The notes beneath the pieces were generated by a model, which was given only the letters and a program-made list of their open reading frames with translations, was not told the origin of the DNA and made no database searches. This document shows positions 31,685 through 46,136 of a stretch of 64,000 bases of DNA, in pieces (position 1 is the stretch's first letter; every line of letters starts with the position of its first letter). Origin of the DNA: Geodermatophilus poikilotrophus (GTDB taxonomy: Bacteria > Actinomycetota > Actinomycetes > Mycobacteriales > Geodermatophilaceae); contig NZ_FOIE01000008.1 in assembly GCF_900111455.1 (NCBI RefSeq), forward strand, positions 214,223 to 278,222, written 5' to 3'. The translations under genes and the position numbers were made by a program.

Positions 31685-32614
31685 TCAGTCCAGCCCGCCG
31701 TAGCTGTGCAGGCCGGTCGAGACCATGTTGACGTAGAGCAGGTTGAACAGGACCACGGCGAAACCGACGACGTTGACCCACGCCGCCGGGCGCCCCCGCC
31801 AGCCGACCGTCGTCCGCGCGTGCAGGTAACCGGCGTAGACCACCCAGGAGATGAACATCCAGGTCTCCTTGGGGTCCCAGCCCCAGAAGCGGCCCCAGGC
31901 GCTCTCCGCCCAGATGGCGCCGGCGATCATCGCGAACGTGTAGATGGGGAAGGCGAAGACGGCGGTGCGGTGGGCGACCCGGTCGAGTGTCGCGGCGCCC
32001 GGGAGCCGGGACAGGAACGAGCCGTCCGCACCGGCCTCCTGCCGGGACCGCAGCAGGTACAGCACGCTGGCGATGCCGCTGACGAAGAAGAGACCCGAGC
32101 CGAGGATCGCGCTGGACACGTGCACGGCCAGCCAGCTGGAGCGCAGCGCGGCGACCAGCGGCCCGGTCTCGGTGTAGAGGAACAACCCGATCGCGACGAG
32201 CGAGATCACCACCGGCGCCAGCACGAAGGCGCCGATGTCGCGGACGGCCGGGACCCGGGTCGCTAGCACCAGGTAGGCCACCACGCCGACGAGGACCACG
32301 GCGGTGGCGAACTCGTACATGTTGCCCCAGGGCAGCCGGTCAGCGGCCATCCCGCGGGTGATCAGCACGCCTGCGTGCGCGGCGGCGCCGAGGACGGTGA
32401 CCGCCAGCCCGGCGAGCCCCCAGCGGTCGCTGCGGAGCGGGGCGGCAGGCGCACCCGCGTCCGCCCCGCCGGACCCGGCGGGGACCAGCTCCCTGGCCGG
32501 CCGCCGGCCGAACGCCAGCTGCGCCGAGAACGCCACGACGGCAACCGAGTAGAGCGCGACGGCGATCGAGAACAGCCTGTCCGACAGCTCGGCCAGCGAC
32601 GGGTCAACGGTCAC
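31685..32614 (-). CDS. ccsB: Cytochrome c biogenesis protein CcsB (haem handling)
   Basis: A 309-residue membrane protein with about eight helices. FWGWDPKETWMF is the tryptophan-rich haem-handling motif, and the flanking His residues (HVSSAIL, GYLHARTTVGW) are typical axial ligands. With ResB it exports haem and attaches it to apocytochrome c in System II. The start overlaps the end of resB by 11 bases. It is the last gene of the ccd/res/ccs block. Confidence 0.94.
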   Translation of the reverse strand: MTVDPSLAELSDRLFSIAVALYSVAVVAFSAQLAFGRRPARELVPAGSGGADAGAPAAPLRSDRWGLAGLAVTVLGAAAHAGVLITRGMAADRLPWGNMYEFATAVVLVGVVAYLVLATRVPAVRDIGAFVLAPVVISLVAIGLFLYTETGPLVAALRSSWLAVHVSSAILGSGLFFVSGIASVLYLLRSRQEAGADGSFLSRLPGAATLDRVAHRTAVFAFPIYTFAMIAGAIWAESAWGRFWGWDPKETWMFISWVVYAGYLHARTTVGWRGRPAAWVNVVGFAVVLFNLLYVNMVSTGLHSYGGLD

Positions 32615-34280
32615 GCGGGGAGACCTCCGGTTCCGGTGCGGCCCCGCCGGACGGCGGGGCGGAGGGGGTCGGGGAACGCTCGTCGAGCGCGGCCCGCAGC
32701 TGCCCGGTCAGCTCGGCGAAGCGGGTGGCGCTCTCGCCGCCGCCCCGCGTCAGCGAGCCGACGGTCAGCACGGTACCGCCGCCGTCGGGAGCCGGGCCGA
32801 CGCGGGCGAAGAAGCGCTCACGGCGCAGGAACAGCAGGGCGAGCAACCCGACGAGCACGGCGATCGCGGCGGCGAGCACCCACACCTGGCCGGGGTCGTG
32901 GGAGAACTGCAGCGCGGCGAACTGCGAGACGCCGGTGAAGGTGACCGCCGTCCCGTCGGGGAGGGTGAGCGTCTCGCCGACCGCCAGGTTGGCCCGGCCG
33001 ACCTCGGCGAGCCGGCCGCGCTCGATCTGGCTGGCGTCGAGCGAGTAGACCGACTGCGGCAGGCCGGAGTCCAGGCCCAGGTAGCCCTGGTAGGCCAGGA
33101 CCGCCACCTGCGGGTTCAGCGGCCGGGGGTCGATCGAGGTCAGGACGCCGCCCTGCATCAGCCCGGTCGGGGCGAAGAAGCCCTCGAGGGCCAGCTGGTC
33201 CTCCACGCCGGCGCCGAGGTCGGGCAGCTTGAGCGCGCCCTCGCTGGACATCGTGGTCTGGTCCGAGGGCAGGAACGGCGCCGAGACGTCCGTGAACGCC
33301 GTCCCGTCGGGCAGGGTGACGGTGAACCGCGGGGCGTAGCCGTGGCCGGTGACGTACACCCGGTCGCCGTCGAGCCGGAGCGGGTCGTTGACGCCGATGG
33401 TGGCCGGCTCCCCCTCCTCGCCGGGGCCGCCGTAGCGGATGTCGGCGGTGTAGGAGGCCGCGGTCAGGTCCTCCTCGTACTCCGCGCGGAAGTCCTCCAG
33501 GTCGATGCAGAGCGGGCTGAGGTCACCGCTGTCGACCAGCGCACCGGAGGAGTGGGTGTCGTACTGCTGGAAGGAGTTGCAGAAGCCCTGGCCCTCGGTG
33601 ACCAGGATGCTGCCCTCGTACCCCCACAGCTTGCCGCCGGCCAGGCCGAGCAGCAGCGCCACCAGGGACAGGTGGAACAGCAGGTTGCCGCTCTCCTTCC
33701 AGAAGCCCTTCTCCGCGGAGAGCTCCGGGCCGGATGCCGCAGGACCCGGCGGAGTCGACGCGGCACCGTCCCGGCGGACGACGCGGAAGCGCCGCACCCG
33801 CAGCTCCTCCTCGACCACGTCGAGGACGGCCGGGCCGGGCAGCGCGGTGGCGAGCTCACCGGAGTCGGGCAGCCGCTGCAGCCGGCGCGGCGCCGGCGGC
33901 GGAGCGGCCCGCAGCGCGCGGACGTGCTCGGCCAGCCGGGGGACGACGCAGCCGATGAGCGAGACGAACAGCAGCAGGTAGACCGCGGCGAACCACGGCG
34001 AGCCGAAGACGTCGAAGGCGTAGAGCCGGTCGAGCACCGGCGCCAGCGTCGGGTGGTCGGCGAAGTACTGCCGGACGGCGTTCTGGTTCAGCGAGCGCTG
34101 CGGGAGCAGCGACCCCGGGATCGCCGCCAGCGCCAGCAGGAACAGCAGGACGATCGCCGTCCGCATCGCGGTCAGCCGGCGCCACCAGCGCAGCCACAGC
34201 CCCCAGGCGCGGGCGCCCAGGGAGGGCCGGGCGGGCGGCGGCGGTGCCGCGGCCGGCCGCGGCGGGGCGACGGTGCTCAC
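32604..34280 (-). CDS. resB: Cytochrome c biogenesis protein ResB/Ccs1
   Basis: A 558-residue partner of CcsB. Three N-terminal helices (about residues 35-60, 95-120 and 200-220) are followed by a large extracytoplasmic domain and a last helix near residue 475. RSLNQNAVRQYFADHP and FWKESGNLLFHLSLVALLLG are recognisable ResB segments. The GTG at 34280 overlaps the end of a 26-codon MIRU-like ORF, which supplies its ribosome site (GAGGAGG). Confidence 0.92.
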   Translation of the reverse strand: MSTVAPPRPAAAPPPPARPSLGARAWGLWLRWWRRLTAMRTAIVLLFLLALAAIPGSLLPQRSLNQNAVRQYFADHPTLAPVLDRLYAFDVFGSPWFAAVYLLLFVSLIGCVVPRLAEHVRALRAAPPPAPRRLQRLPDSGELATALPGPAVLDVVEEELRVRRFRVVRRDGAASTPPGPAASGPELSAEKGFWKESGNLLFHLSLVALLLGLAGGKLWGYEGSILVTEGQGFCNSFQQYDTHSSGALVDSGDLSPLCIDLEDFRAEYEEDLTAASYTADIRYGGPGEEGEPATIGVNDPLRLDGDRVYVTGHGYAPRFTVTLPDGTAFTDVSAPFLPSDQTTMSSEGALKLPDLGAGVEDQLALEGFFAPTGLMQGGVLTSIDPRPLNPQVAVLAYQGYLGLDSGLPQSVYSLDASQIERGRLAEVGRANLAVGETLTLPDGTAVTFTGVSQFAALQFSHDPGQVWVLAAAIAVLVGLLALLFLRRERFFARVGPAPDGGGTVLTVGSLTRGGGESATRFAELTGQLRAALDERSPTPSAPPSGGAAPEPEVSPRDR

Positions 34281-34357
34281 AACACCTCCTCGCTGGCGCT
34301 CGTCGGTGCTGTGAGCAGTGCTGCTCCGTTGATCGGTGACCTCGCGAGCTCGGTCAC
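34277..34357 (-). repeat. MIRU-like 26-codon element between ccdA and resB (copy 1)
   Basis: This 81-base element sits in a stop/start junction. Its GTG overlaps the ccdA TGA as GTGA and its own TGA overlaps the resB GTG as GTGA. It encodes a 26-residue peptide that begins VTELARSP and ends PTSASEEVL. The 5' end folds as GTGACC/GGTCAC, and the 3' end (ACGAGCGCCAGCGAGGAGG) gives resB its Shine-Dalgarno. Two relatives flank rex at 43.2 and 43.95 kb. Confidence 0.8.
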
Positions 34358-35172
34358 AGCACGCTCTCCGCGAAGCCGTTGGCGGCCAGCCAGCCCTGCA
34401 GCCAGCGCATCATCTCGGTCCAGGCGCCGGTGACCAGCAGCAGGCCGACGACGACGAGGACGGCGCCGCCGAACCGCGTGACCGCCTGCGCGTGCCGCCG
34501 CAGGAACGACGTCGCGCCCATCGCCCAGCGGGCGCCGAGGGCGACGAGCACGAACGGCACGCCCAGTCCCAGGCAGTAGGCCAGCCCGAGCAGCGCCCCG
34601 CGTCCGGCGGTGGCCTGCTGGAAGGCGAGGTTCTGCACCGCGGCGAGCGTGGGGCCCAGGCACGGCGTCCAGCCCAGCCCGAAGACGACGCCCAGCAGCG
34701 GCGCCCCCGCCAGCCCGGTCGCCGGGCGGAGGGCCATCCGCCTGGTGCGCTGCAGCAGCGGCAGCCAGCCGAGGAAGCCCAGCCCGACCAGGACGGTGAC
34801 GACGCCGAGCACCCGGGTGATCTCGTCGTTGTACTGCAGCAGCAGCCGGCCCAGGCCGCCGACCGCGGTGCTGATGGTGACGAAGACGGCGGTGAAGCCG
34901 AGCACGAACAGGACGGCGCCGAGGACCATCCGCCCGCGGGGTGACCGCTCGTCGGTGCGGACCACCGTCGCCGTGGAGCCGCCGGACGCGACCGCGGCGG
35001 GGGCCGTCGTCCGGGCACCGGAGCCGACCAGCCCGGTGACGTAGGACAGGTAGCCGGGCACCAGCGGCAGCACGCACGGCGAGGCGAAGCTGACCAGCCC
35101 GACCAGCGCCGCGACGGCAGCGGCCACGAGCAGCGGGCCGTCGGTCACGAGGCCGCCGAAGGTCTCCCCCAT
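34354..35172 (-). CDS. ccdA: Thiol-disulfide transporter CcdA
   Basis: A 272-residue, six-helix membrane protein. The redox cysteines are in FASPCVLPLVPGYLSY and GWTPCLGPTL. It carries reducing power across the membrane to the thioredoxin-like ResA so that haem-binding cysteines in cytochrome c stay reduced. The ATG at 35172 shares one base with the resA stop. A polar Ala/Thr/Arg loop separates helices 1 and 2. Confidence 0.93.
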   Translation of the reverse strand: MGETFGGLVTDGPLLVAAAVAALVGLVSFASPCVLPLVPGYLSYVTGLVGSGARTTAPAAVASGGSTATVVRTDERSPRGRMVLGAVLFVLGFTAVFVTISTAVGGLGRLLLQYNDEITRVLGVVTVLVGLGFLGWLPLLQRTRRMALRPATGLAGAPLLGVVFGLGWTPCLGPTLAAVQNLAFQQATAGRGALLGLAYCLGLGVPFVLVALGARWAMGATSFLRRHAQAVTRFGGAVLVVVGLLLVTGAWTEMMRWLQGWLAANGFAESVL

Positions 35173-35747
35173 CAGCCCTCCTCGGCCAGCAGCAGGTCGA
35201 GCACCGCCCGCAGGTCCTCCTGCGCGACCGCGCCGGTGTAGACCGCGGCCACCCGCCCCTGCGCGTCCAGCACGATGGTGGACGGGATGGCGTTGGCCGG
35301 GTAGTCCCGGAACGCCAGGGCCACCTCGCCCCGCGGGTCGTGGAGCGACGGGAACTCGATGCCGAAGCTGTCCTCGAACGCGCGGGCCAGCTGGTCGGTG
35401 TCCTTCACGTTGACGCCCAGGAACCGCACGCCCCGGTCGCGCACCTCGGCGTAGACCTCCTGGAACTCCGGCGACTCCACCCGGCAGGGGGCGCACCAGG
35501 AACCCCAGAAGTTGACGACCGCGATGCCGCCGTCGAGCTCGGTGGAGGCGAAGTCGTCGCCGTCGAGCAGGGTGCCGGAGAACTCCGGCGCGGCGGCGCG
35601 CTCGTCGGACGGGATGACCTCCCCGGCCGGGGTGCCCTGGACGAAGCGGAACTCCCCGCCGTTGTTGACGTCGACGGCGCCGTCGCCGGTGGCGCAGCCG
35701 GTGAGCAGCAGCGCAGCCACCAGCGCGCCGAGCAGACCTCGCCTCAT
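35172..35747 (-). CDS. resA: TlpA/ResA-type thioredoxin lipoprotein
   Basis: A 191-residue lipoprotein with lipobox LLTGC (Cys about 18) and a thioredoxin fold. The active site is GSWCAPCRVE, and the cis-Pro loop is AIPSTIVLD. It probably keeps apocytochrome c cysteines reduced, drawing electrons from CcdA. The ATG at 35747 overlaps the phosphatase stop as ATGA. Confidence 0.92.
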   Translation of the reverse strand: MRRGLLGALVAALLLTGCATGDGAVDVNNGGEFRFVQGTPAGEVIPSDERAAAPEFSGTLLDGDDFASTELDGGIAVVNFWGSWCAPCRVESPEFQEVYAEVRDRGVRFLGVNVKDTDQLARAFEDSFGIEFPSLHDPRGEVALAFRDYPANAIPSTIVLDAQGRVAAVYTGAVAQEDLRAVLDLLLAEEG

Positions 35748-36379
35748 GCGCCGGGGACCGCGTCCGGCGGGGTGGCGCCGGCGGGCTCGGCGTAGGAGAT
35801 CCCCACGACGTGGTCGCCGTCGTAGGTCACCGAGGTGACGCTGGCCAGCCCGCACTGCCGGCGGCGCGGGTCGTGCGTGTAGCGGCGTCCCTCCAGGTGC
35901 AGCCGCAGCGTCCAGATCGGCAGCTGGTGGCTGACGCAGACCGCCGCGGCACCGCGGGCGGCGTCCCGCGCGGACTCGACCGCGGCCAGCATCCGCGCGG
36001 CGATCTCGACGTAGGGCTCGCCCCACGACGGGCGGAACGGGTTGCGCAGCTTCCACCAGTGCTGGGGGGAGCGCAGGGCGCCGTCCCCCACGCCGACCCG
36101 CAGCCCCTCGAAGGCGTTGCCCGCCTCGATCAGCCGGTCGTCCACCCCGATCGGCAGGTCGAGCTTGCCGGCGATCGGCGCGGCGGTCTGCTGCGCGCGC
36201 TTCAGCGGGCTGCTGACCACGTGGGTGACGCCCTTGCCGGACAGCCACTCGGCGGCGGCCAGCGCCATCGCCTCGCCGGTCTCCGACAGCCGGTAGCCCG
36301 GCAGCCGGCCGTAGAGCACCTCCTCCGGGTTGAACACCTCGCCGTGGCGGAGCAGGTGGACCACGGTCTCCTCGGCCAT
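35744..36379 (-). CDS. Histidine phosphatase-family protein
   Basis: A 211-residue protein of the phosphoglycerate-mutase-like superfamily. LLRHGEVFNPEEVLYGRLPG carries the catalytic His, SSPLKRAQQTA the second Arg, and CVSHQLPIWTLR the second His. The Glu (LIEAGNAFEG) is also present. The mycobacterial counterpart lies in the same hemL-resA position. The substrate is unknown. The start shares one base with the hemL stop. Confidence 0.88.
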   Translation of the reverse strand: MAEETVVHLLRHGEVFNPEEVLYGRLPGYRLSETGEAMALAAAEWLSGKGVTHVVSSPLKRAQQTAAPIAGKLDLPIGVDDRLIEAGNAFEGLRVGVGDGALRSPQHWWKLRNPFRPSWGEPYVEIAARMLAAVESARDAARGAAAVCVSHQLPIWTLRLHLEGRRYTHDPRRRQCGLASVTSVTYDGDHVVGISYAEPAGATPPDAVPGA

Positions 36380-37764
36380 CAGGTGCTCATCCCGGTGGAG
36401 GCGTCGGCCGGCTCCTCGGCCGGCGGGGCGGACGACGGGTCGACGGCCGCGGCGGCACGGGCGGCCGCCGGGAGTGCGTCGAGGACCCGCTCGACGGCCT
36501 CGTCGTCGAGCGCGGCGCTGACGAACCACGACTCGAACGCCGAGGGCGGCAGGTAGACGCCGCGGGCGAGCATCGCCTGGAAGAAGGCGGTGTAGCGGGC
36601 GGCGTCCTGCGAGCGCGCGTCGTCGTAGTCGCGCACCTGCCGGTCGTCGGGGACGAAGAACACCGAGAACATCGAGCCGGCCTGCTGCACGCGGTGCGGG
36701 ACGCCCGCGGCGAACAGCGCGGCGCTGGCCGCCCCGCGGAGGGTGACGGCGACCTCGTCGCAGCGGGCGTAGACCTCGCGGGTGCAGTGCCGCAGCGTGG
36801 TGAGGCCCGCGGCGACCGCGACCGGGTTCCCCGACAGCGTGCCCGCCTGGTAGACCGGCCCGGCCGGGGCCAGGTGCTGCATGAGGTCGGCGCGGCCGCC
36901 GAAGGCCGCGGCCGGCAGCCCGCCGCCCATGACCTTGCCGAAGGTCATCAGGTCGGCGTCCACCGGGTCCAGGCCGTACCAGCCGGAGCGGGACACGCGG
37001 AAGCCGGTCATGACCTCGTCGACGATCAGCAGTGCACCGTGCGCGGCGGTGGTGCGGCGCAGCGCCTGGTTGAAGCCGTCCAGCGGCGGGACGACGCCCA
37101 TGTTGCCGACCGCGGCCTCGGTGATGACCGCGGCGATCTCGCTGCCCCGCTCGGCGAAGACGGCCTCGACCGCGGCCGCGTCGTTGTAGGGCAGGACGAC
37201 GGTGTCGGCGGCGGCGCCGGTGGTGACGCCGGGGGTGTCGGGCAGGCCGAGGGTGGCCACGCCGGAGCCGGCCGAGGCCAGCAGCGCGTCGACGTGGCCG
37301 TGGTAGCAGCCGGCGAACTTGACGATGACCCGACGGCCCGTGACGCCGCGGGCCAGGCGCACCGCCGAGAGGACCGCCTCGGTGCCGGAGTTGACCAGCC
37401 GCACCTCTTCCACCGGCGGCATGCGGCGGACGATCTCCTCGGCCAGCTCCACCTCGCCCTCGGTCGGGGTGCCGAAGGTCAGGCCGCGGCGGGCGGCAGC
37501 GGTGACCGCCTCCACGACCGCCGGGTGGGCGTGGCCGAGGATCAGCGGGCCCCACGAGGCGACGAGGTCGACGTAGCGGCGGCCGTCTGCGTCGGTGAGG
37601 TACGCGCCCTGGCCCTGGGCCATGAAGCGGGGGGTGCCACCGACGGCGCCGAAGGCGCGCACCGGTGAGTTCACCCCGCCGGGGGTGACCCGCTGCGCGC
37701 GGGCGAACAGGTCGGCCGACGCGGGGGCCTCGTAGGCGTACGGGGGGCTGTCCAGCGAGGTCAC
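36379..37764 (-). CDS. hemL: Glutamate-1-semialdehyde 2,1-aminomutase
   Basis: A 461-residue PLP enzyme that makes 5-aminolevulinate from the product of HemA (C5 haem route). [10 protein letters not shown] opens the domain, and [17 protein letters not shown] contains the Schiff-base Lys. DEVMTGFRV and [11 protein letters not shown] are also typical. The GTG at 37764 overlaps the preceding stop as GTGA. The last 35 residues are an Ala/Pro-rich tail. Confidence 0.95.
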
Positions 37765-38261
37765 GACCCCAGTGTCCCCTCCCTCTCCGACGGGCCGCCG
37801 GGGACGTCCGCCACAGCCGCGAGCAGGGCACGCGACAGCGCCGCCGGGTCGCGGGTGGGCACCAGCACGGTGCGCCCGTCCGTCGTCCGCAGCGGCAGGC
37901 CCGACCGGCCGCGCGGCAGCGACCAGCCGCCGCCGAGCACCGGGGCACCCGCGTCCACCCCCGCCGTCCCGGCGCCGACCGCGCGCAGGTGGGCGGCGTC
38001 GACGTCGGCGAGCGGCACCCGCTCCGGGCCGACCGCGAGCACCGGGTCGGCGCCGCCGGCGTCGACCTGCACCGTCCAGGCCCGGCGGGCCGAGACCACG
38101 CCGGTCGCGACCACGCCCAGGACGGCGACCACGGCCAGCGCCCACACCGGCGGCGGCAGCCCGGGGCCGGGCAGGGCGGCGTCCAGGACGACGAGGAGCC
38201 CGAGGGCCCCGGCGACCAGCCAGAACGGCCGCCAGGAGCCCCCGGGCTCTGCGTAGGACAT
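37761..38261 (-). CDS. Small membrane protein, DUF3093-like
   Basis: A 166-residue protein with two hydrophobic helices (about residues 12-30 and 38-58) and a soluble C-terminal domain ending in [14 protein letters not shown] and [13 protein letters not shown], as in DUF3093-type actinobacterial proteins. It sits between hemB and hemL with one- to four-base overlaps, so it is in the haem operon. The role is unknown. Confidence 0.75.
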
Positions 38262-39265
38262 CAGCGCAGCCAGCGGGCGGCCTCCACCGCCCAGTAGGTG
38301 AGCACGGTGCCCGCGCCCGCCCGGCGGATGGCGGTGAGCGTCTCCAGGACAGCCCGCTGCCGGTCCACCCAGCCGTTGGCGGCGGCCGCCTCGAGCATCG
38401 CGTACTCACCGCTGACCTGGTAGGCGCTGACCGGGACGTCGACGGCGTCGGCGACCCGGGCGACGATGTCCAGGTAGGGCAGCGCCGGCTTGACCATGAC
38501 CGCGTCGGCGCCCTCGGCGAGGTCCTGCGCCACCTCGCGCAGCGCCTCGTCGGCGTTGGGCGGGTCCATCTGGTAGGTCGAGCGGTCGCCGAACTGCGGC
38601 GCGCCCTCGGCCGCCTCGCGGAACGGGCCGTAGAAGCCCGAGGCGTACTTGGCGGCGTAGGCCAGGATCGGCGTCTCCTGGAAGGCCGCGCCGTCCAGCG
38701 CCCGCCGGATCGCCGCGACCTGGCCGTCCATCATCCCGCTGGGGGCGATGACGTGCGCTCCTGCCTGGGCCTGGGCGATCGCGACGGCGGCGTAGCGGTC
38801 CAGCGTCGGGTCGTTGTCGACGACGCCGGCCGGGGTGACGAGCCCGCAGTGCCCGTGGTCGGTGTACTCGCACAGGCACAGGTCGGCCATGAGCACCAGC
38901 TCGTCGCCGAGGTCGGCGCGCAGCTGCTGCAGGGCGACGTTGACGATGCCGTCGGCGGCGTCGGCCTGGGAGCCGACCGCGTCCTTCTCCGACGGGATCC
39001 CGAAGAGGACCAGCCCGCCGATGCCGGCCTCGGCCGCCTCGTGCGCGGCCTTGCGCAGCGACTCGGTCGTGTGCTGGACGACGCCGGGCATCGAGCTGAT
39101 CGGCTGCGGCTCGTCGATGCCCTCCTTGACGAACACCGGCAGCACGAGGTCGGCCGGGGCCAGCCGGGTCTGCGCGGTGAGCCGCCGCAGCGCGGCCGTC
39201 GACCGCAGCCGACGCCCGCGCGTGAAGCCACGGGTCGACCCGCCCGCCCCCACACCTGCGGTCAC
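38261..39265 (-). CDS. hemB: Porphobilinogen synthase (5-aminolevulinate dehydratase)
   Basis: A 334-residue enzyme joining two 5-aminolevulinates. The catalytic lysines are in [17 protein letters not shown] and [25 protein letters not shown] contains the zinc cysteines. [12 protein letters not shown] and [10 protein letters not shown] are further signatures. The GTG at 39265 overlaps the hemD stop as GTGA. Confidence 0.96.
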
Positions 39266-40812
39266 TGCTCCTCGCCGCCCTCCGCCTCGCGCAGGGACAG
39301 CGCGTGCTCGGCCAGCGCGTCCACCAGCGGGCCCACCGCGGCGGTCTCCGGCTGGACGTCGACCCGCAGGCCGAACTCCTGCGCGGTCGCCGCGGTCTGC
39401 GGGCCGATCACCGACACGACGGTCTTCGCGTGCGGCTTGCCGGCGATGCCGACCAGGTTCCGCACGGTGCTCGACGAGGTGAAGCACACCGCGTCGAAGC
39501 CGCCGCCCTTGATCGCCTCGCGCACCGGGGCGGGCGGCGGGGCGGCCCGGACGGTGCGGTAGGCGGTGACGTCGTCGATCTCCCAGCCGCGCTCCTTGAG
39601 GCCTGCGGCGAGGGTCTCGGTGGCGATGTCGGCGCGGGGCAGCAGCACCCGGTCGATCGGGTCCAGCACGTCGTCGTACTCGGGGAAGTCGGCCAGCAGG
39701 CCCTCGCTGGACTGCTGCCCGGTGGGCACCAGCTCCGGCACGATGCCGAAGGCGCGCACGGCATCGGCGGTGGACTCCCCGACGCAGGCGACCTTCACGC
39801 CGGCGAACGCGCGGGCGTCCAGGCCGAGCTCGACGAACTTCTCCCGGACGGCCTTCACCGCGTTCACCGAGGTGAAGACGATCCAGCCGTAGCGACCGGT
39901 GACCAGGCCCTTGATGGCGCGGTCCATCTGCGCGGGGCTGCGCGGCGGCTCGACGGCGATCGTCGGCACCTCCACCGGGACGGCGCCGTAGGCACGCAGC
40001 CGGTCGCTCATCTCGCCCGCCTGGTCCTTGGTGCGCGGCACCAGCACCCGCCAGCCGAACAGCGGCCGGCTCTCCCACCAGGACAGCCGGGCGCGCTTGT
40101 CGACGGCCGACCCGACGGTGGCCACGACCGGGCCGCTGACGGCGTCCAGGCCGGCGGTCTTCTCGGCGACGGCGGCGAGCTTGGCCACCACGCTGCGCTG
40201 CCCGGTGCCCGAGCCGCCGGTGGTGACGACGACCGCGGTGCTGCCGGACAGGCCGCCCTCGACCAGCCGCGCGGCGGCGTCCGGGAGGTCCTCGGCGTCG
40301 CCCTGGAGCACCAGCGGCGCGTCCAGGCCCTTGGCCGCGGTGGCCAGCGCCGCCAGGTCGGCCTCGCCACCGCGCAGGTCCGCGGTCAGCGAGGTGCCGC
40401 CGAGCGCGACGCCGGCGAACGCCGGGACGGCGGTCTGCGGGGCGACGCCGGGGACGACGTCGAAGCCGACCGAGGTGCGGCTCACGGCCAGCACCTCCTT
40501 GACCACGGCGTCGGAGGTGAACGGGTCGCCGGCGACCAGCCGGACGACGGTGCCGCCGGCCTTGGCGGCGGCCACGGCCGCCTTGGCGACCTCGGCCGGC
40601 TCCCCGGTCGCGGGGGTCAGCTCGAGCTCCGGCCGGTCGGCGCGGACGGCCTCGGCGACCGCCGGCGGGACGGCGGCGTCGACGAGGACGGTGTGCGCCT
40701 CGGCGAGCGCCGCGGTCGCCCGGGCGGTGAGCATCCCGGGGTCGCCCGGGCCGGCGCCGACGAAGACGACCGTGCCGGTCGCCCCGCCGTTCTGCTTGCG
40801 GAAGCGCGTCAT
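39262..40812 (-). CDS. hemD: Fused uroporphyrinogen-III C-methyltransferase-like / uroporphyrinogen-III synthase
   Basis: A 516-residue fusion normal in actinobacteria. Residues 1-245 resemble a SAM-dependent tetrapyrrole methyltransferase (VFVGAGPGDPGMLT, VVRLVAGDPF, PGVAPQTAVPA), and residues about 260-510 are the HemD synthase (RVLVPRTKDQAGEMSDRL, FTSVNAVKAV, FTSSSTVRNL, VSVIGPQTAATA). HemD inverts ring D to form uroporphyrinogen III. The methyltransferase part may serve sirohaem or cobalamin synthesis or be regulatory; some motifs look weakened. Confidence 0.92.
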   Translation of the reverse strand: MTRFRKQNGGATGTVVFVGAGPGDPGMLTARATAALAEAHTVLVDAAVPPAVAEAVRADRPELELTPATGEPAEVAKAAVAAAKAGGTVVRLVAGDPFTSDAVVKEVLAVSRTSVGFDVVPGVAPQTAVPAFAGVALGGTSLTADLRGGEADLAALATAAKGLDAPLVLQGDAEDLPDAAARLVEGGLSGSTAVVVTTGGSGTGQRSVVAKLAAVAEKTAGLDAVSGPVVATVGSAVDKRARLSWWESRPLFGWRVLVPRTKDQAGEMSDRLRAYGAVPVEVPTIAVEPPRSPAQMDRAIKGLVTGRYGWIVFTSVNAVKAVREKFVELGLDARAFAGVKVACVGESTADAVRAFGIVPELVPTGQQSSEGLLADFPEYDDVLDPIDRVLLPRADIATETLAAGLKERGWEIDDVTAYRTVRAAPPPAPVREAIKGGGFDAVCFTSSSTVRNLVGIAGKPHAKTVVSVIGPQTAATAQEFGLRVDVQPETAAVGPLVDALAEHALSLREAEGGEEQ

Positions 40813-40897
40813 CGCGTGCTCCTGGGTAGGGCCCTGACGGGCTGGTGTGCGGGGGTACGGGAGGCCGGGGTCTGCTGCCCGGCCCGGGAGGTGCGGC

Positions 40898-41836
40898 TCA
40901 CCGGGACGCCGCCATCAGTTCGGCGGCCCCCCGGTCGAGGAGTTCTGCGGCGAGCTCGCGGCCGAGCCGCTCGGCCTCGGGAGGCGGTCCGGTGATCGAG
41001 CCGCGGACGCCGTCGCTGCCGTCGAGCGCGGTGACCGAGGCGCGGAGGAACAGCTCGGGGCCGTCCTCGCCCTCGGCGAGCTCGGCGTAGGCGGCGACCG
41101 GCGCGCTGCAGCCGGCCTCCAGCGCCGCCAGCGTCGTCCGCTCGGCGACGACGCAGGCGCGGGTGGCGGCGTCGTCGAGGGGGGCGAGCAGCTGCCGGGT
41201 CCGCTCGTCGTTCCCGCGGCACTCCACGGCCAGCGCGCCCTGCGCCGGCGCGGGTAGGACCTGCAGCGGGTCGAGCGTCTCGGTGACCGCCGACAGCCGC
41301 CCCAGCCGGGACAGCCCGGCGCGGGCCAGCACGACGGCGTCCAGGTCACCCGGGACGACGCGCGCCAAGCGGGTGTCGACGTTGCCGCGGATCGGCACCA
41401 CCTCGAGGCCGAGGCCCAGGGCGCGCAGCTGGGCCACCCGCCGCGGGGCGCCGGTGCCCACCGTCGCGCCCGGCGGCAGCTCGCCGAGGGTGAGGCCGTC
41501 GCGGGCGACCAGCGCGTCGCGCGGGTCCTCCCGGAGCGGGACGGCGGCGATGGCCAGCCCCGGCTCCGGCAGCGTCGGGAGGTCCTTGTAGCTGTGGACG
41601 GCGACGTCGACGGTGCCCTCGAGCAGCGCCTGCCGGATCGCCGTCACGAAGACACCCGTGCCGCCGAGCTGGGCGATCGCCACCGAGGAGCGGTCGCCCT
41701 CGGTGCTGATGTGCACCAGCTCGACCGGGACGCCGCTGGCCGCGGTGATGGCGTCGGCGACGGCCTGCGACTGGGTGGTCGCCAGCTGGCTGGCGCGGGT
41801 GCCGAGGCGCAGGGTGCCGGTGGTGGTCGCCGTCAT
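40898..41836 (-). CDS. hemC: Hydroxymethylbilane synthase
   Basis: A 312-residue porphobilinogen deaminase. [15 protein letters not shown] opens the protein. [15 protein letters not shown] holds the cysteine that binds the dipyrromethane cofactor. [11 protein letters not shown] and [11 protein letters not shown] contain catalytic Asp and Arg positions. The ATG at 41836 overlaps hemA as ATGA. Eighty-five bases without visible structure separate it from hemD. Confidence 0.96.
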
Positions 41837-43209
41837 GCCGTGCCCCCGGGCCGCAGCTCGTCGGGGTCGACGGCGACCGCCTCAGCCAGGTTGGTCCGCG
41901 CCGGGAGGACCTCCGCGTCGATGCCCAGGCCGAACAGGGCCCGCAGCGCGTCGGCGTAGTCGACTCCGCCCGGGGCGCTGGCCAGCTCCTTGACCCGCAC
42001 GGTCGGCTCGTGCAGCAGCTTGTCGACGACGCGGCGCACGGTCCGGGCCACCTCGGCGCGGGTGCGGGCGTCCAGGTCGGGCACCCGCGTGGACAGCCGC
42101 AGCAGCTCCGCGTCGACGACCTCGGCGGCCTGGCTGCGCAGCGCGGAGACCGTCGGCGCCACCGCGGCGGCCTGCCGCTCGGCACGCAGCAGCGCGGTCT
42201 CGGCCTCGATGAGGGCGTGCGCCGCGGCGACGTCGTCCGCCGCCACCGGGCTGGCGGACGAGTGCCCGTCGGCGCCCCGCTCCCCCTGCAGGAGGGCCAG
42301 GTCGACCACGTGCACCCCGGGCAGCGCGGCCACGCCGGGGTCGACGTCGCGGGGCAGCGCCAGGTCGATGACCACCAGCGGCCGGTCCGGCCGGGCGGCC
42401 CCGGTCCGCGACCGCATCGCCCCGGCCACCACCTCCGTGCCGATGACGATGCCGCGCGCGCCGGTGCAGGTGACCAGCACGTCGGCGGCGGCGATCTCCG
42501 CGGGCAGGTCGGCGAGGTCGGCGAGGCGGCCCTCGACGGACGTCGCCAGCCGCTGGGCGTGCGCGGGTGTGCGGCTGCTCACGGTCACGGCGGCGCCGCG
42601 GCGGGCCAGCGTGGTGGCGGCCAGCGCGCCCATGGAGCCGGCGCCCACGACGAGTACCGGACGTCCCTCCAGCGAGCCGATGCGCTCCTCGGCGCGGTCC
42701 AGCGAGACCGACACGAGCGAGGCGCCGGCCTTGTCGATCCCGGTCTCGGAGTGGACCCGCTTGCCGACCCGCAGCGCCCGCTGCGCGACCGGGTGCATGG
42801 CGCGGCCCACCGTGCCCTGCTCCCGGGCGAGCGCGTAGGCGTTGCGCAGCTGGCCGAGGACCTGGGTCTCGCCGACGACCATGGAGTCCAGGCCCGCGGC
42901 GACGGTGAACAGGTGCGCGACAGCCTGGTCCTCGTAGTGCACGGTGACGTACGGGGAGAGCTCCTCCACCGTGGCGCCCGCCTGACGGGCCAGCACCCGG
43001 CTGACGTCGGTGACGCCGCCGTGGAACCGGTCCACCTCGGCGAAGACCTCGACCCGGTTGCAGGTCGCCAGCACGATCGCCTCGCTGACGTGGTCGCTGC
43101 CGACCAGCTCGTGCAGCGTCTTGACGGTGTCGTCGGCGCCCATCGCGAACTGCTCGAGCAGCGCCACGGGGGCCGTCTGGTGGCTGACACCCACGGCGAG
43201 CAGGCTCAC
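41833..43209 (-). CDS. hemA: Glutamyl-tRNA reductase
   Basis: A 458-residue first enzyme of the C5 haem route. [15 protein letters not shown] carries the catalytic Cys near residue 50, [13 protein letters not shown] the specificity region, [21 protein letters not shown] the NADPH motif, and the C-terminal helical dimer domain follows. The GTG at 43209 overlaps the end of a MIRU-like ORF as GTGA and uses the ribosome site in that element. It is downstream of rex, as in the known streptomycete rex-hem operon. Confidence 0.95.
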
Positions 43210-43286
43210 GAGTCCTCCTCGCCGGCGCTCGTCGGACGCGCTCGCCGGGCTGCCGCGCCCACGGGTGAGCTCGCGAGCTCGCTCAC
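43206..43286 (-). repeat. MIRU-like 26-codon element between rex and hemA (copy 2)
   Basis: This 81-base element has the same length and junction geometry as the ccdA/resB copy: the GTG overlaps the rex TGA and the TGA overlaps the hemA GTG, both as GTGA. The peptide begins VSELASSP and ends PTSAGEEDS. Its hairpin reads GTGAGC/GCTCAC where copy 1 has GTGACC/GGTCAC, a compensatory pair change. ACGAGCGCCGGCGAGGAGG provides the hemA ribosome site. Confidence 0.82.
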
Positions 43287-43948
43287 GCGGTCACCTCCAC
43301 CGTCGTCGCGGCCGCGCCGCGCTGCTGGCCGAGGAACGCGAGCACCTGCAGCTCGACGGACAGGTCGACCTGGCGGACGTCGACCCCCGCGGGCGCGGTC
43401 AGCGCCACCGGCGCGAAGTTCAAGATGCTCCTCACCCCGGCCGCGGTCAGCCGGTCGCAGACCGACTGGGCGACGTCGGCCGGTGTCGCGATGACCCCGA
43501 TCGTGGCCGCGGTCGCGGCCACCACCTCGTCGAGCTCGGCCACCGGCCGCACCGGCTGGCCACCGATCCGCCGGCCGACGCGCTCGGGGGCGGCGTCGAA
43601 GAGGCCGACGAACCGGAACCCGCGGCTGCCGAAGCCGGCGTAGTCGGCCAGGGCCGTGCCCAGGTTGCCGATCCCGACCAGCACGCAGGGGCGGGACTGC
43701 TCGACACCGAGGACCCCGGCGATGCGGTCCCGCAGCGTGGCCACCTCGTAGCCCACCCCGCGGACCCCGCAGGGGCCCAGGTGCGAGAGGTCCTTGCGCA
43801 GCCCGGCCGGGTTGACGCCCGCCGCCGAGGCGAGCTCACCCGAGGACACGTTGCGGCGCCCGCCGTCGGCCAGACCCGCGAGCACGCGCAGGTACACGGC
43901 CAGGCGGGCGACGGTGGCCTCCGGGATCCGGGGGCGGGCTGGGGACAC
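43283..43948 (-). CDS. rex: Redox-sensing transcriptional repressor Rex
   Basis: A 221-residue NADH/NAD+ sensor. Residues about 10-85 form the winged helix (VARLAVYLRVL, SSGELASAAGVNPAGLRKDLSHLG), and the rest is a Rossmann domain (CVLVGIGNLGTALADY) with the swapped C-terminal helix. Rex releases DNA when NADH is high. The GTG at 43948 follows a GAGGAG ribosome site at the end of a MIRU-like copy. However, the element's 26 codons are in frame, so a 247-residue form starting at 44026 is possible. It heads rex-hemA-hemC-hemD-hemB. Confidence 0.95.
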   Translation of the reverse strand: MSPARPRIPEATVARLAVYLRVLAGLADGGRRNVSSGELASAAGVNPAGLRKDLSHLGPCGVRGVGYEVATLRDRIAGVLGVEQSRPCVLVGIGNLGTALADYAGFGSRGFRFVGLFDAAPERVGRRIGGQPVRPVAELDEVVAATAATIGVIATPADVAQSVCDRLTAAGVRSILNFAPVALTAPAGVDVRQVDLSVELQVLAFLGQQRGAAATTVEVTA

Positions 43949-44026
43949 GGGCCACTCCTCGCCGGCGCTCGTCGACCTCGTGCCCTGAGGAGCTGTGCCG
44001 TCGCACGACCTCGCGGTCTCGGTCAC
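43949..44026 (-). repeat. MIRU-like 26-codon element fused to the 5' end of rex (copy 3)
   Basis: Seventy-eight bases encode VTETARSC..., ending STSAGEEWP, aligned residue for residue with the other two copies, but without a stop: the frame continues into rex. The hairpin GTGACC/GGTCGT can still form using G-U pairs. ACGAGCGCCGGCGAGGAG lies just upstream of the usual rex GTG. No upstream gene ends here, so this copy lies in the rex leader. Confidence 0.75.
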
Positions 44027-44123
44027 GTGGCACTCCACAAACGGTCGCGCCCGGAGTCCGGCGGGTGCCGGATGCGGTCGAACGACATCGGGGACCCGGG
44101 CGGTCAGCCGCCCGGCGACCGCC

Positions 44124-44152
44124 ACGGTAACCGCTTGTGAACGCAGGAACAA
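44124..44152 (-). promoter_or_regulatory. rex promoter with imperfect Rex operator between -35 and -10
   Basis: On the minus strand TTGTTC (44152-44147), 17 bases, then TACCGT (44129-44124) make a good sigma-A promoter. The stretch 44152-44135 reads TTGTTCC, TGCG, TTCACAA: one perfect half and one weak half of the Rex consensus. Autoregulation through such a site is known for the streptomycete rex-hem operon, so the same is likely here. Confidence 0.65.
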
Positions 44153-44239
44153 AGTCGCCGGGGGGCCACCAGGCCGCTACCCAGCGCAGACGCGCACCGC
44201 TGTGGTGGAGACCATAGCAAGGGCCCCCGTGCCGGCCTC

Positions 44240-44311
44240 GGTCGGGCGAGGCCGATCCCGTCGTCGACCGGTGCGCTCCGGCGCCGCTGCAGCAGCGCGG
44301 GAGCGCACCGG
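44240..44311. terminator. Two hairpins downstream of the glutaredoxin gene
   Basis: CCGGTGCGCTCC (44268-44279) pairs perfectly with GGAGCGCACCGG (44300-44311), and the 20-base loop contains an inner CGCTGC/GCAGCG stem. Next to it CGGCCTCG and CGAGGCCG form a second stem near 44234-44255. They lie after the glutaredoxin stop on the minus strand and should end that transcript before the rex promoter. Confidence 0.6.
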
Positions 44312-44341
44312 CCCTGCCGCCGTCCGGGCGTCGGCCCCCGG

Positions 44342-44590
44342 CTACAGGGCGAGGTCCCGCCGCAGCCGGGGCACGTCGACGGTGAAGTAGGAGTGCTCCC
44401 GCCCGTCGAGCAGCACCACCGGCACGCGGTCGCCGTACTCGGCCTGCAGCTCCGGGTCGGCGTGCACGTCGACCGTGGTCACCGTCAGCCCCGCCTCCGC
44501 GGCGAGCCGGTCGAGGGTCTCCGCGGCCACTGCGCACAGGTGGCAGTCGGCCCGGGTCAGCAGCTGCAGCCGAGGCGCGTCACCGGTCAC
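44342..44590 (-). CDS. Glutaredoxin-family protein
   Basis: An 82-residue thioredoxin-fold protein with active site CHLC near residue 16 and the cis-Pro in RVPVVLLDG. It belongs to the small DUF836-like/glutaredoxin group present at the same place in mycobacteria. The reducing partner is unknown. The GTG at 44590 overlaps the upstream ligase gene by 11 bases. Confidence 0.85.
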   Translation of the reverse strand: MTGDAPRLQLLTRADCHLCAVAAETLDRLAAEAGLTVTTVDVHADPELQAEYGDRVPVVLLDGREHSYFTVDVPRLRRDLAL

Positions 44591-46136
44591 CGTCGCCCCC
44601 GGCGGTCGGCTCGTCGTCGGCGCGGGCCAGACCCAGCTCGCGCAGCCGCGCCCGGCTGACCTTGCCGGTCAGCGAGTGCGGCAGCGCGGTCAGCACGTGC
44701 ACCGACGTGGGCACCTTGTACCGGGCCAGGGACGCCGCCGCGTGCGCCCGCAGCTCCTCGAAGGCCAGCCGAGCACCCGGGCGCAGCGCGACCACGGCGC
44801 GCACGGCGGCGCCGGTCCGCGGGTCCGGCACGCCGATGACCGCGCTCTCCGCGACCGCCGGGTGCGCGTCGAGCACCCGCTCCACCTCTGCGGGGTAGAC
44901 GTTGAAGCCGCTGACCAGGACCAGGTCGCTGCGCCGGTCGACCAGGTGCAGGTCGCCGTCCCCGTCGGCGTAGGCGAGGTCGCCGGTGGCCAGCCAGCCC
45001 TCGGCGTCCGGCCCGTCGACGCCGTCGGGCCAGTACCCGGAGAAGAGGTTGGCCCCGCGGATCCAGATCTCGCCGGGGCCGTCCTCGGAGAGCTCCCCGG
45101 GCGCCGACACCTCGCCGTCCTCCAGCGGCTCGTGCAGCGCGGTGTCGCGCAGCTGCAGCTCCACCCCGGGGACCGGGCCGCCGATGCACGTCGGCTTGGC
45201 CCGCCCGGTCGCCAGCGTGCTGGCCACCACCGGGCAGGCCTCGGTCAGCCCGTAGCCCTCCCACACCGTGACCGCGGCCCGCTCGCGCATCGCCGTCCAG
45301 ACGTCCTCGGGCAGCGGTGCGGCGCCGGAGGTGGCGATGCGGACGGCGGCGAAGGCGCGGCGCAGGCCGGCGTCGGACCCGGCGGCGTCCGCGACGGCCA
45401 GCCAGGCCTGGTAGACGGGCGGGGCGCCCGGGACCGCGGTGACCTCCTCGCGCGCCATCACCTCCAGCGAGGTGACCGGGTCGAAGGACTCCACGAGCAC
45501 CGCGCAGGCGCCGGCCGCCGCGACCAGGCCGAAGCCGGCGTTGAGGCCGTAGACGTGGAACAGCGGCAGCACCAGCAGCACGCGGTCGTCGGGCCGGACC
45601 GGGGGCGGGTCCATCCGCAGGCACTGCTCCTGGTTGGCCCGCAGCGCGGCGGCCGACAGCATCGCGCCGCGCGGCCGGCCGGTGGTCCCGCTGGTGTAGG
45701 CGAGGAAGGCCAGGGAGCCGGGGGCCTCGGGCACCGCCGGCGGGGCGGCGTCGTCCGTCGGCGGCCCGGCGAGCACGGGCACGCCGGCCACCTGCGGCCG
45801 ATCCCCGGGCGCGACGAGCAGCGCCGCCCCGGAGTCGGTGAGCACGTGCTCCAGCTCCGGGTCGGTGTAGGCGGTGTTGACCGGGACGACGACCAGCCCC
45901 GCACGCAGGGCGCCCAGCGTCGCCCGCAGCCAGTCCACGCCGTTGGGCAGCTGGACGGCCACCCGCTCGCCCGGCGCGAGGCCGCGGGCTGCGTACCCGG
46001 CGGCCGCGCGGTCGACCAGGGCGTCCAGCTCGCCCCAGCTCAGCCGCTGCTCGCCGGCCACGACCGCCGGTGCGTCCGCGCGGTCCCGCGCCGCGGCGCG
46101 CACCAGCACGGACAGCGAGCTACCGACGTCGGTCAT
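44580..46136 (-). CDS. AMP-forming acyl-CoA synthetase-like enzyme
   Basis: A 518-residue ANL-superfamily ligase. [16 protein letters not shown] is the nucleotide motif, [15 protein letters not shown] the A5 motif, [11 protein letters not shown] and [19 protein letters not shown] the hinge, and SLTGKVSR contains the C-terminal catalytic Lys. It resembles medium/long-chain fatty acyl ligases more than MenE; the substrate is uncertain. I chose the ATG at 46136, six bases after GGAGGAG, over an ATG two codons upstream. It probably forms an operon with the glutaredoxin gene. Confidence 0.88.

Follow-up and report, generated by a model that had tools for sequence, protein, structure and literature searches.

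We report that the 81-base sequence lying between ccdA and resB in the window (the whole stretch of 64,000 nucleotides of Geodermatophilus poikilotrophus DNA that was analysed) is very probably a copy of a MIRU-like insertion element that enters DTGA stop-start sites or gene starts and leaves the signals for translational coupling in place. Its many copies, the precise empty sites, the choice of site and orientation, the frame-keeping lengths, the SD-like site, and the hairpins that include its ends are all read directly from the sequences compared; mobility is suggested by the copy number together with the empty sites, and maintenance of coupling by the signals retained. With a start, a stop, and a ribosome-binding signal of its own, the element probably allows the neighboring genes still to be read together.

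The ccdA/resB copy and its sister copies in the genome

The copy at ccdA/resB occupies positions 34277..34357 of the minus strand and measures 81 bp including both GTGA ends, that is, a 77-bp unit plus one DTGA. From 34357 down to 34277 runs a GTG...TGA frame of 26 codons plus the stop. The upstream gene, ccdA (34354..35172, minus strand; delimited by translation, named in an earlier sequence-only reading, and followed in relatives by sequence), closes with the TGA of the left GTGA (34354..34357, minus strand), where its stop overlaps the GTG start of the mini-ORF. The downstream gene, resB (32604..34280, minus strand; an ORF named in the same reading), opens at the GTG of the right GTGA (34277..34280, minus strand), which also contains the TGA stop of the mini-ORF. 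Folding and covariation place two hairpins in the copy. Hairpin 1 (34336..34357, minus strand) pairs the left GTGACC with GGTCAC, while in hairpin 2 (34279..34312, minus strand) a conserved GACGAGCGCCAGCGAGGAG core is enclosed by a covarying outer stem, which pairs with the start region of resB. Within hairpin 2, as read from the sequence, lies GAGGAGG (34285..34291, minus strand), an SD-like site for resB, 4 bases 5' of its GTG start. The sequence-only reading had described an 81-base ORF that links two genes through GTGA overlaps at both ends, can code for 26 residues, and carries the SD of resB; the frames and coordinates confirm these points, and the element described there is real.

The window holds three copies in all. 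The second, between a rex-like gene and hemA (43206..43286, minus strand; genes named by Pfam), belongs to a GTGAGC..GCTCAC subtype, and its junction is free of the element in some relatives. The third (43945..44026, minus strand) sits at the start codon of the same rex-like gene, which lies between the two copies (43283..43948, minus strand; Pfam Put_DNA-bind_N and CoA_binding); its right end is GTGT, not GTGA, and no coding frame was found directly upstream of it. A search of positions 33000-45000 against Rfam gave two matches at E ≤ 1, both under the cut-off and outside the three copies, and with no match over the gathering score in that range a known Rfam family was rejected.

In the genome as a whole (4.83 Mb, 18 contigs), BLAST gave 44 matches (40 candidates scored), and a covariance model gave 51 at E ≤ 0.1 and 49 at E ≤ 0.003, including the 37 own copies from which it was built and which match by construction. 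The genome-wide search that the sequence-only reading had proposed, with the 81 bases and a covariance model, thus yields about 49 copies, far above chance. The curated set used below consists of 40 own copies around BLAST matches with a profile score of at least 27, and excludes four weaker pieces and the copies found by the covariance model alone. NTGA stands at both ends of 35 of these 40, and the frame is intact in 32, one of which has no start codon; one copy is 105 bp long. DTGA is absent at an end in 5 of the 40 and in 27 of the 212 copies of the wider set described below. Adjacent copies have one DTGA in common, which gives tandem units a step of 77 bp. At one locus (L042:3001-3039), a 39-base internally deleted copy lies immediately 5' of a full copy and retains the start, the stop, the SD-like site, and both GTGA ends.

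Insertion sites and empty junctions

The surroundings of the 35 own copies with TGA at both ends were assessed by codon usage, using a score derived from 89 long ORFs; a frame was accepted only if it was the best of six, and the frames examined were the upstream one closing at the left TGA and the downstream one opening at the right DTG. The right DTG opens a best-coding downstream frame in 33 of the 35 copies, compared with 407 of the 1974 further DTGA sites that these loci contain, and the left TGA also ends a best-coding upstream frame, so that both sides are coupled, in 25 of the 35 versus 52 of the 1974 control sites. The element sits most often inside operons, at stop-start overlaps, and its orientation is that of the downstream gene in 33 of the 35 copies. 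Ten copies have no clear coupled upstream gene. Two of these fail on both sides (L048:3069-3148, downstream of which lies a sister copy, and the weakly scoring L063) and eight fail upstream only, two of the eight (L048:2993-3072 and L042) having another copy or a piece of one upstream. Since these ten have no clear upstream partner, the element uses plain gene starts too. Outside the family, where frame length was the only measure, frames of at least 80 codons open on both sides in 35 of 76 copies and downstream in 64 of 76. Ten junctions were named by Pfam, among them rex-like/hemA, aroB/aroQ, folB/folK, ribE/ribBA, pdxT/yebC, fliP/fliQ, a T2SS E/F pair, and an M16 pair.

We then compared the ccdA/resB junction with that of relatives. 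A CcdA search gave 80 named loci, of which 26 with a ccdA at least 71% identical (L075-L099 and L116) were kept; the remainder, at most 62% identical, were excluded. A bare DTGA stands at the junction in 22 of the 26. The resB motif follows 3' of the junction in 25, the exception being G. chilensis (L075), because its contig diverges past the junction. In the 21 bare junctions with the motif, a DTG in frame with it lies at 93-111 bases, mostly at 105 (13 loci). The window junction, at 182 bases, is 77 bases longer than this commonest bare spacing. Blastococcus capsensis likewise has 182 bases, with one copy of another subtype (105 + 77), and G. siccatus has 259, with two tandem copies (105 + 154). 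The junction of Modestobacter sp. VKM Ac-2986 (161 bases) holds a piece resembling a decayed copy, and that of B. saxobsidens (188 bases) holds another insert.

The joined flanks of seven own junctions, at all of which the own genome carries the element by choice, were also searched in 14 other Geodermatophilus genomes. Among the 60 regions read, 12 have the element, 21 a bare 4-bp DTGA, and 27 neither or an unclear arrangement. By junction, the element, bare, and other counts are 3, 3, and 8 for rex/hemA (n = 14); 0, 0, and 6 for aroB/aroQ (n = 6, the flanks aligning a few bases off); 3, 8, and 3 for fliP/fliQ (n = 14); 0, 2, and 4 for folB/folK (n = 6); 2, 5, and 1 for ribE/ribBA (n = 8); 4, 1, and 5 for pdxT/yebC (n = 10, one element without its left DTGA and two of the others cut off); and 0, 2, and 0 for S9/DUF1810 (n = 2). 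Which DTGA, left or right, is the old target was not the same across the informative junctions.

Other sequences were met at some of these junctions. At fliP/fliQ, three genomes (G014, G008, and G013; L297, L298, and L299, respectively) carry a different repeat group, 87-165 bp long, at DTGA. This group has a common core near GAGCATCGCAGCGAGGAACGAGCGAGGAGCGG and also occurs at the ccdA/resB junction of B. saxobsidens (L080:3816-3899), with similar pieces at L048:1278-1341, L100:244-388, and L037:2665-2719; more than one repeat group seems to use DTGA coupling sites. At folB/folK, four Geodermatophilus genomes (G003, G010, G004, and G006; L302-L305) have 81-93 bp of other sequence with no DTGA overlap.

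The sequence-only reading had favored a mobile repeat over an ordinary conserved gene and had suggested comparing ccdA/resB junctions with and without the element. The mostly bare junctions, the two relatives longer by 77 and 154 bases with one or two copies, and the further copies in the genome bear it out, as the same 81 bases are not found in all relatives. Its proposal that the element inserts at coupling sites without breaking the coupling stands as regards insertion, at several junctions, and has to be widened to include plain gene starts; as regards coupling, it finds its counterpart in the signals kept.

Frame, paired ends, and distribution

A wider set was drawn from 100 further regions and the earlier loci, in which the model R2 gave 108 and 115 matches, 214 of them distinct and 212 at least 60 bases long. 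Its counts describe the better-scoring matches of chosen genomes, and they are not independent events, because the copies were selected by score and are related by descent. DTGA stands at both ends of 185 of the 212 distinct copies, which are 68-84 bp long. Frame-keeping lengths predominate, namely 69 (3 copies), 72 (5), 75 (22), 78 (18), 81 (117), and 84 bp (11), and off-frame lengths of 68 (1), 80 (2), and 82 bp (6) make up 9 of the 185. The ORF is intact in all copies of in-frame length, which number 176 of the 185, or 59 of 68 when the commonest length is excluded. A second frame is also free of stops in 85 of the 117 81-mers; since composition often leaves it so, the lengths are more telling than the absence of stops. 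The entropy at codon positions 1, 2, and 3 (1.09, 1.20, and 1.13 bits) is nearly equal and gives no sign of peptide conservation. In 184 of the 185 copies, an SD-like motif, under a loose definition and without a control, lies no more than 15 nt from the right start. What is conserved is thus the two covarying hairpins, the frame-keeping lengths, and the ends, not the peptide.

RNAalifold alone gave 13 pairs, 4 with double changes, and these were extended by eye to 19. On a MAFFT alignment, which is not fitted to structure, 87.8% of the cells are paired versus 79.5% when shuffled and 26-42% when slid, and 56 double changes are seen versus 26 in the shuffles, with none of 500 shuffles reaching either value. 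Weaker measures of covariation gave 9 pairs with double changes versus 6.7 (reached by 27 of 500 shuffles) and further pair types (reached by 5 of 500). The wider, structure-fitted alignment has 226 double changes versus 70. Facing GA/GA positions mark the hairpin cores. Single-sequence folds are not exceptional (z of -2.0 for the window copy and -0.8 to +0.9 for five others), and the L047 copy folds otherwise.

The pairing extends to the ends of the element. On the fitted alignments (n = 185), the base that opens the left DTGA forms G-C with its hairpin partner in 116 copies, A-T in 54, and other combinations in 15, and at the right end the pair is C-G in 116, T-A in 59, and other in 10. A raw mutual-information scan mixed subfamilies and was confounded by them; it was therefore repeated within groups, which firms the left end and not the right. 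In unaligned Geodermatophilaceae 81-mers, the top partner of the left base is position 22 (G-C in 54 and A-T in 5 of 64), and in the other copies, also unaligned, it pairs with position 23 (G-C in 55 and A-T in 43 of 117), which is top in their 81-mers too. The right base is uninformative in Geodermatophilaceae, with only two A; elsewhere, an offset of 34 from the end was the best of eight tried (A-T in 44, G-C in 31, and G-G in 19 of 117), and in 81-mers the right first base finds its best partner in the left first base. The two first bases agree in 162 of the 185 copies, and they can differ with each still matched (L361, L362, and L378). For the left DTGA, the hairpin supplies a base complementary to its first base; for the right DTGA the same holds, less firmly. 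Such matching is expected both from target recognition by pairing and from later selection for sealed start codons.

All 25 genomes of the genus (own included) match at E ≤ 0.001, and outside it, in the same sample, 1 of 16 matches, over 28 bases only. With the consensus as query, 45 of 57 genomes of the family match at E ≤ 0.001. In one genus of the family (g20, nine genomes), three genomes (G060, G066, and G075) have no copy and six have 1-5, with far higher numbers elsewhere; copies this few would be useful in a gene presence/absence search for a mobilizing enzyme. In the order, with 15 candidates scored per genome, 84 of 298 genomes match at E ≤ 0.001; counted from the listing, 48 are in the window's family and 36 outside it, and many of these 36 have no more than one weak match. 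Inspection of 12 of the 36 revealed copies in families f2, f8, f15, and f16, which have the ends, a ACACAGCA-like middle box, and the 3' core in common, and one f15 genome gave 42 matches. The wider model R2 matched 62 of 150 f16 genomes at E ≤ 1e-4 and 11 of 151 f8 genomes at E ≤ 0.001, the latter in two genera only and none in g8. A laxer search of g8 matched 6 of 40 genomes at E ≤ 0.1 (best E, 2.4e-4). Those in four of the six are weak-scoring elements of 69 bases bounded by DTGA (11 of 13 matches, including a 65-base tandem unit); 126-base stretches in two of the six, one of them inside an open frame, were dropped as copies. Other families also have shorter versions of 69 bases, in some cases with a tandem step of 65 bp (L188, L189, L192, L428, and L429). 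Genus g8 is probably Mycobacterium (at least 396 genomes, and a CMAS mycolate gene beside one array), and we suspect f8 to be Mycobacteriaceae and f16 to be Pseudonocardiaceae. Judged by these matches, the element is not special to Geodermatophilaceae and has relatives in four further families of the order.

A search of 72,556 plasmid and 50,697 phage records with an 81-base consensus gave no match at E ≤ 0.01. In viral contigs, a 20-base core was matched exactly once, at a place where the remainder of the element is missing. A g8 array had weak matches (E, 0.06-0.2) to the haloarchaeal plasmids CP095395.1 and NZ_CP095398.1 (Natribaculum), which probably reflect chance or a shared GAGCGAAGCGAGC-like motif.

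Proposed mode of insertion, alternatives, and known repeats

We propose that a 77-bp unit enters a DTGA (a TGA stop overlapping the next ATG or GTG) or a plain gene start, and that it is almost always oriented like the downstream gene. Once the unit is in place, the upstream gene would stop at the left DTGA, where a mini-ORF of 22-27 codons (lengths of 69-84) would start; the mini-ORF would stop at the right DTGA, and the downstream gene would start there behind an SD-like site supplied by the element. A ribosome finishing the upstream gene may re-initiate on the mini-ORF, open hairpin 2, and reach the downstream gene, and with a ribosome so delivered the insertion would cost little. The element may spread as a unit mobilized in trans, and the hairpins, which pair each DTGA with an internal complement, may serve as end recognition, coupling switches, or both.

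Other origins have to be weighed against this. That an ordinary conserved small gene separates ccdA and resB, a reading with which the intact ORF and its start, stop, and SD-like site would agree, is refuted by the roughly 49 genome copies, by the absence of the element from 22 of the 26 named junctions, and by the lack of a conservation signal in the peptide (near-equal entropy at the three codon positions), and we give that reading next to no credence. Deserving more weight, if still rather unlikely, is a dispersed cis-regulatory RNA under host selection, in which hairpin 2 hides the SD and the start so that downstream translation needs upstream translation, and whose spread by recombination or gene conversion is incidental. 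The covarying stems do take in the start codon and the SD region, nearly every copy (184 of 185) has the SD-like site, the frame is kept, and the sites are operon junctions of common genes. However, ccdA/resB is bare in 22 of 26 relatives, as other junctions are in many, so these genes manage without the element, and at the same fliP/fliQ site three genomes carry a different insert group.

The remaining alternatives concern the means of movement. It is improbable that the element is a decayed MITE left over from one insertion sequence with a chance DTGA target. Such a MITE would be short, multi-copy, and without its own transposase, as the element is, and the 4 bp in common might represent a target duplication, the first bases agreeing in 162 of 185 copies, but no terminal inverted repeats were found by eye (the ends GTGACCGAGC and GACGCGTGA are not inverted repeats), and the same architecture recurs in several families with lengths in codon steps, which is not expected of a decaying remnant. 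We are similarly doubtful of a single-strand DNA element with hairpin ends, mobilized by an HUH transposase (IS200/IS605, REP/RAYT-like) that recognizes DTGA by hairpin pairing. The two end hairpins, the DTGA at the target and the right end, and the complementary base that varies with the A or G of the left DTGA (and, with less certainty, of the right DTGA) would all suit it, whereas Pfam Y1_Tnp (PF01797), the one enzyme profile searched, was found in none of the 57 family genomes (E ≤ 0.001) by a search that was positive in 5 of 14 control genomes. The MIRU-like insertion element is the reading that we retain.

Several consequences follow for known repeats. MIRU-type elements would extend beyond mycobacteria to harmless soil actinobacteria, with many sequenced species and, in some genomes, dozens of copies; many species, many copies, and clean empty sites make movement and its effect on coupling directly testable. 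The strategy of the element is legible from sequence, in the stop, the start, the SD-like site, the frame-keeping length, and the paired ends, and the element may account for annotated small genes and shifted start codons in the order. More tentatively, the Mycobacteriales might possess a single ancient superfamily of mobile elements, 65 to 80 bp long and lacking a transposase, whose two end hairpins pair with DTGA (through TCAC or TCAT), and which find and rebuild coupling sites by base pairing, with MIRUs as one branch and a mover other than a Y1 transposase. No described element of this group was found in the literature searched, beyond whose reach lay many subscription papers.

REP/REPIN sequences are dispersed short hairpin DNA without a transposase gene of their own. 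The element resembles the REP/REPIN-RAYT system in this respect and differs in lying mostly in operons at gene starts, in one orientation and with an open frame, and in the absence of the Y1 transposase from all 57 family genomes. With MITEs it has in common that it is a small non-autonomous repeat with a possible 4-bp target duplication, but it has no terminal inverted repeats (by eye) and has start, stop, and SD signals built in.

Supply et al. reportedly described DTGA as the MIRU insertion site in 1997, and DTGA insertion sites with empty counterparts were met here too. As for differences, the element occurs in other bacterial families and has two covarying hairpins with DTGA within the stems, a feature that, to our knowledge, has not been described for MIRUs. 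MIRUs are reported as short repeats of 46-101 bp at 41 loci. According to PMC2734929, the rnc-fpg1 intergenic region contains repeats and measures 279-358 bp in the M. tuberculosis complex versus 1-54 bp in other mycobacteria, and repeat length correlated with expression. The MIRU20 primer, as given in PMC8803872, reached no MIRU locus in 396 g8 genomes; its one g8 match, with two mismatches, lies in an MmgE/PrpD gene, where R2 scores at most 14.1 bits. The likeness to MIRUs extends to a short repeat at tens of loci (here 68-84 bp, 117 of 185 being 81 bp, with about 49 own copies), to a small ORF overlapping both neighbors by 4 nt (here on both sides in 25 of 35 copies and downstream in 33, the ORF being intact in 176 of 185), to the orientation of the adjacent genes (here that of the downstream gene in 33 of 35), and to tandem arrays (here 77-bp steps, with two copies in G. 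siccatus, and 65-bp steps elsewhere). It is well supported by this analogy that the element would work like a MIRU, the likeness being one of architecture and of the 77-bp step.
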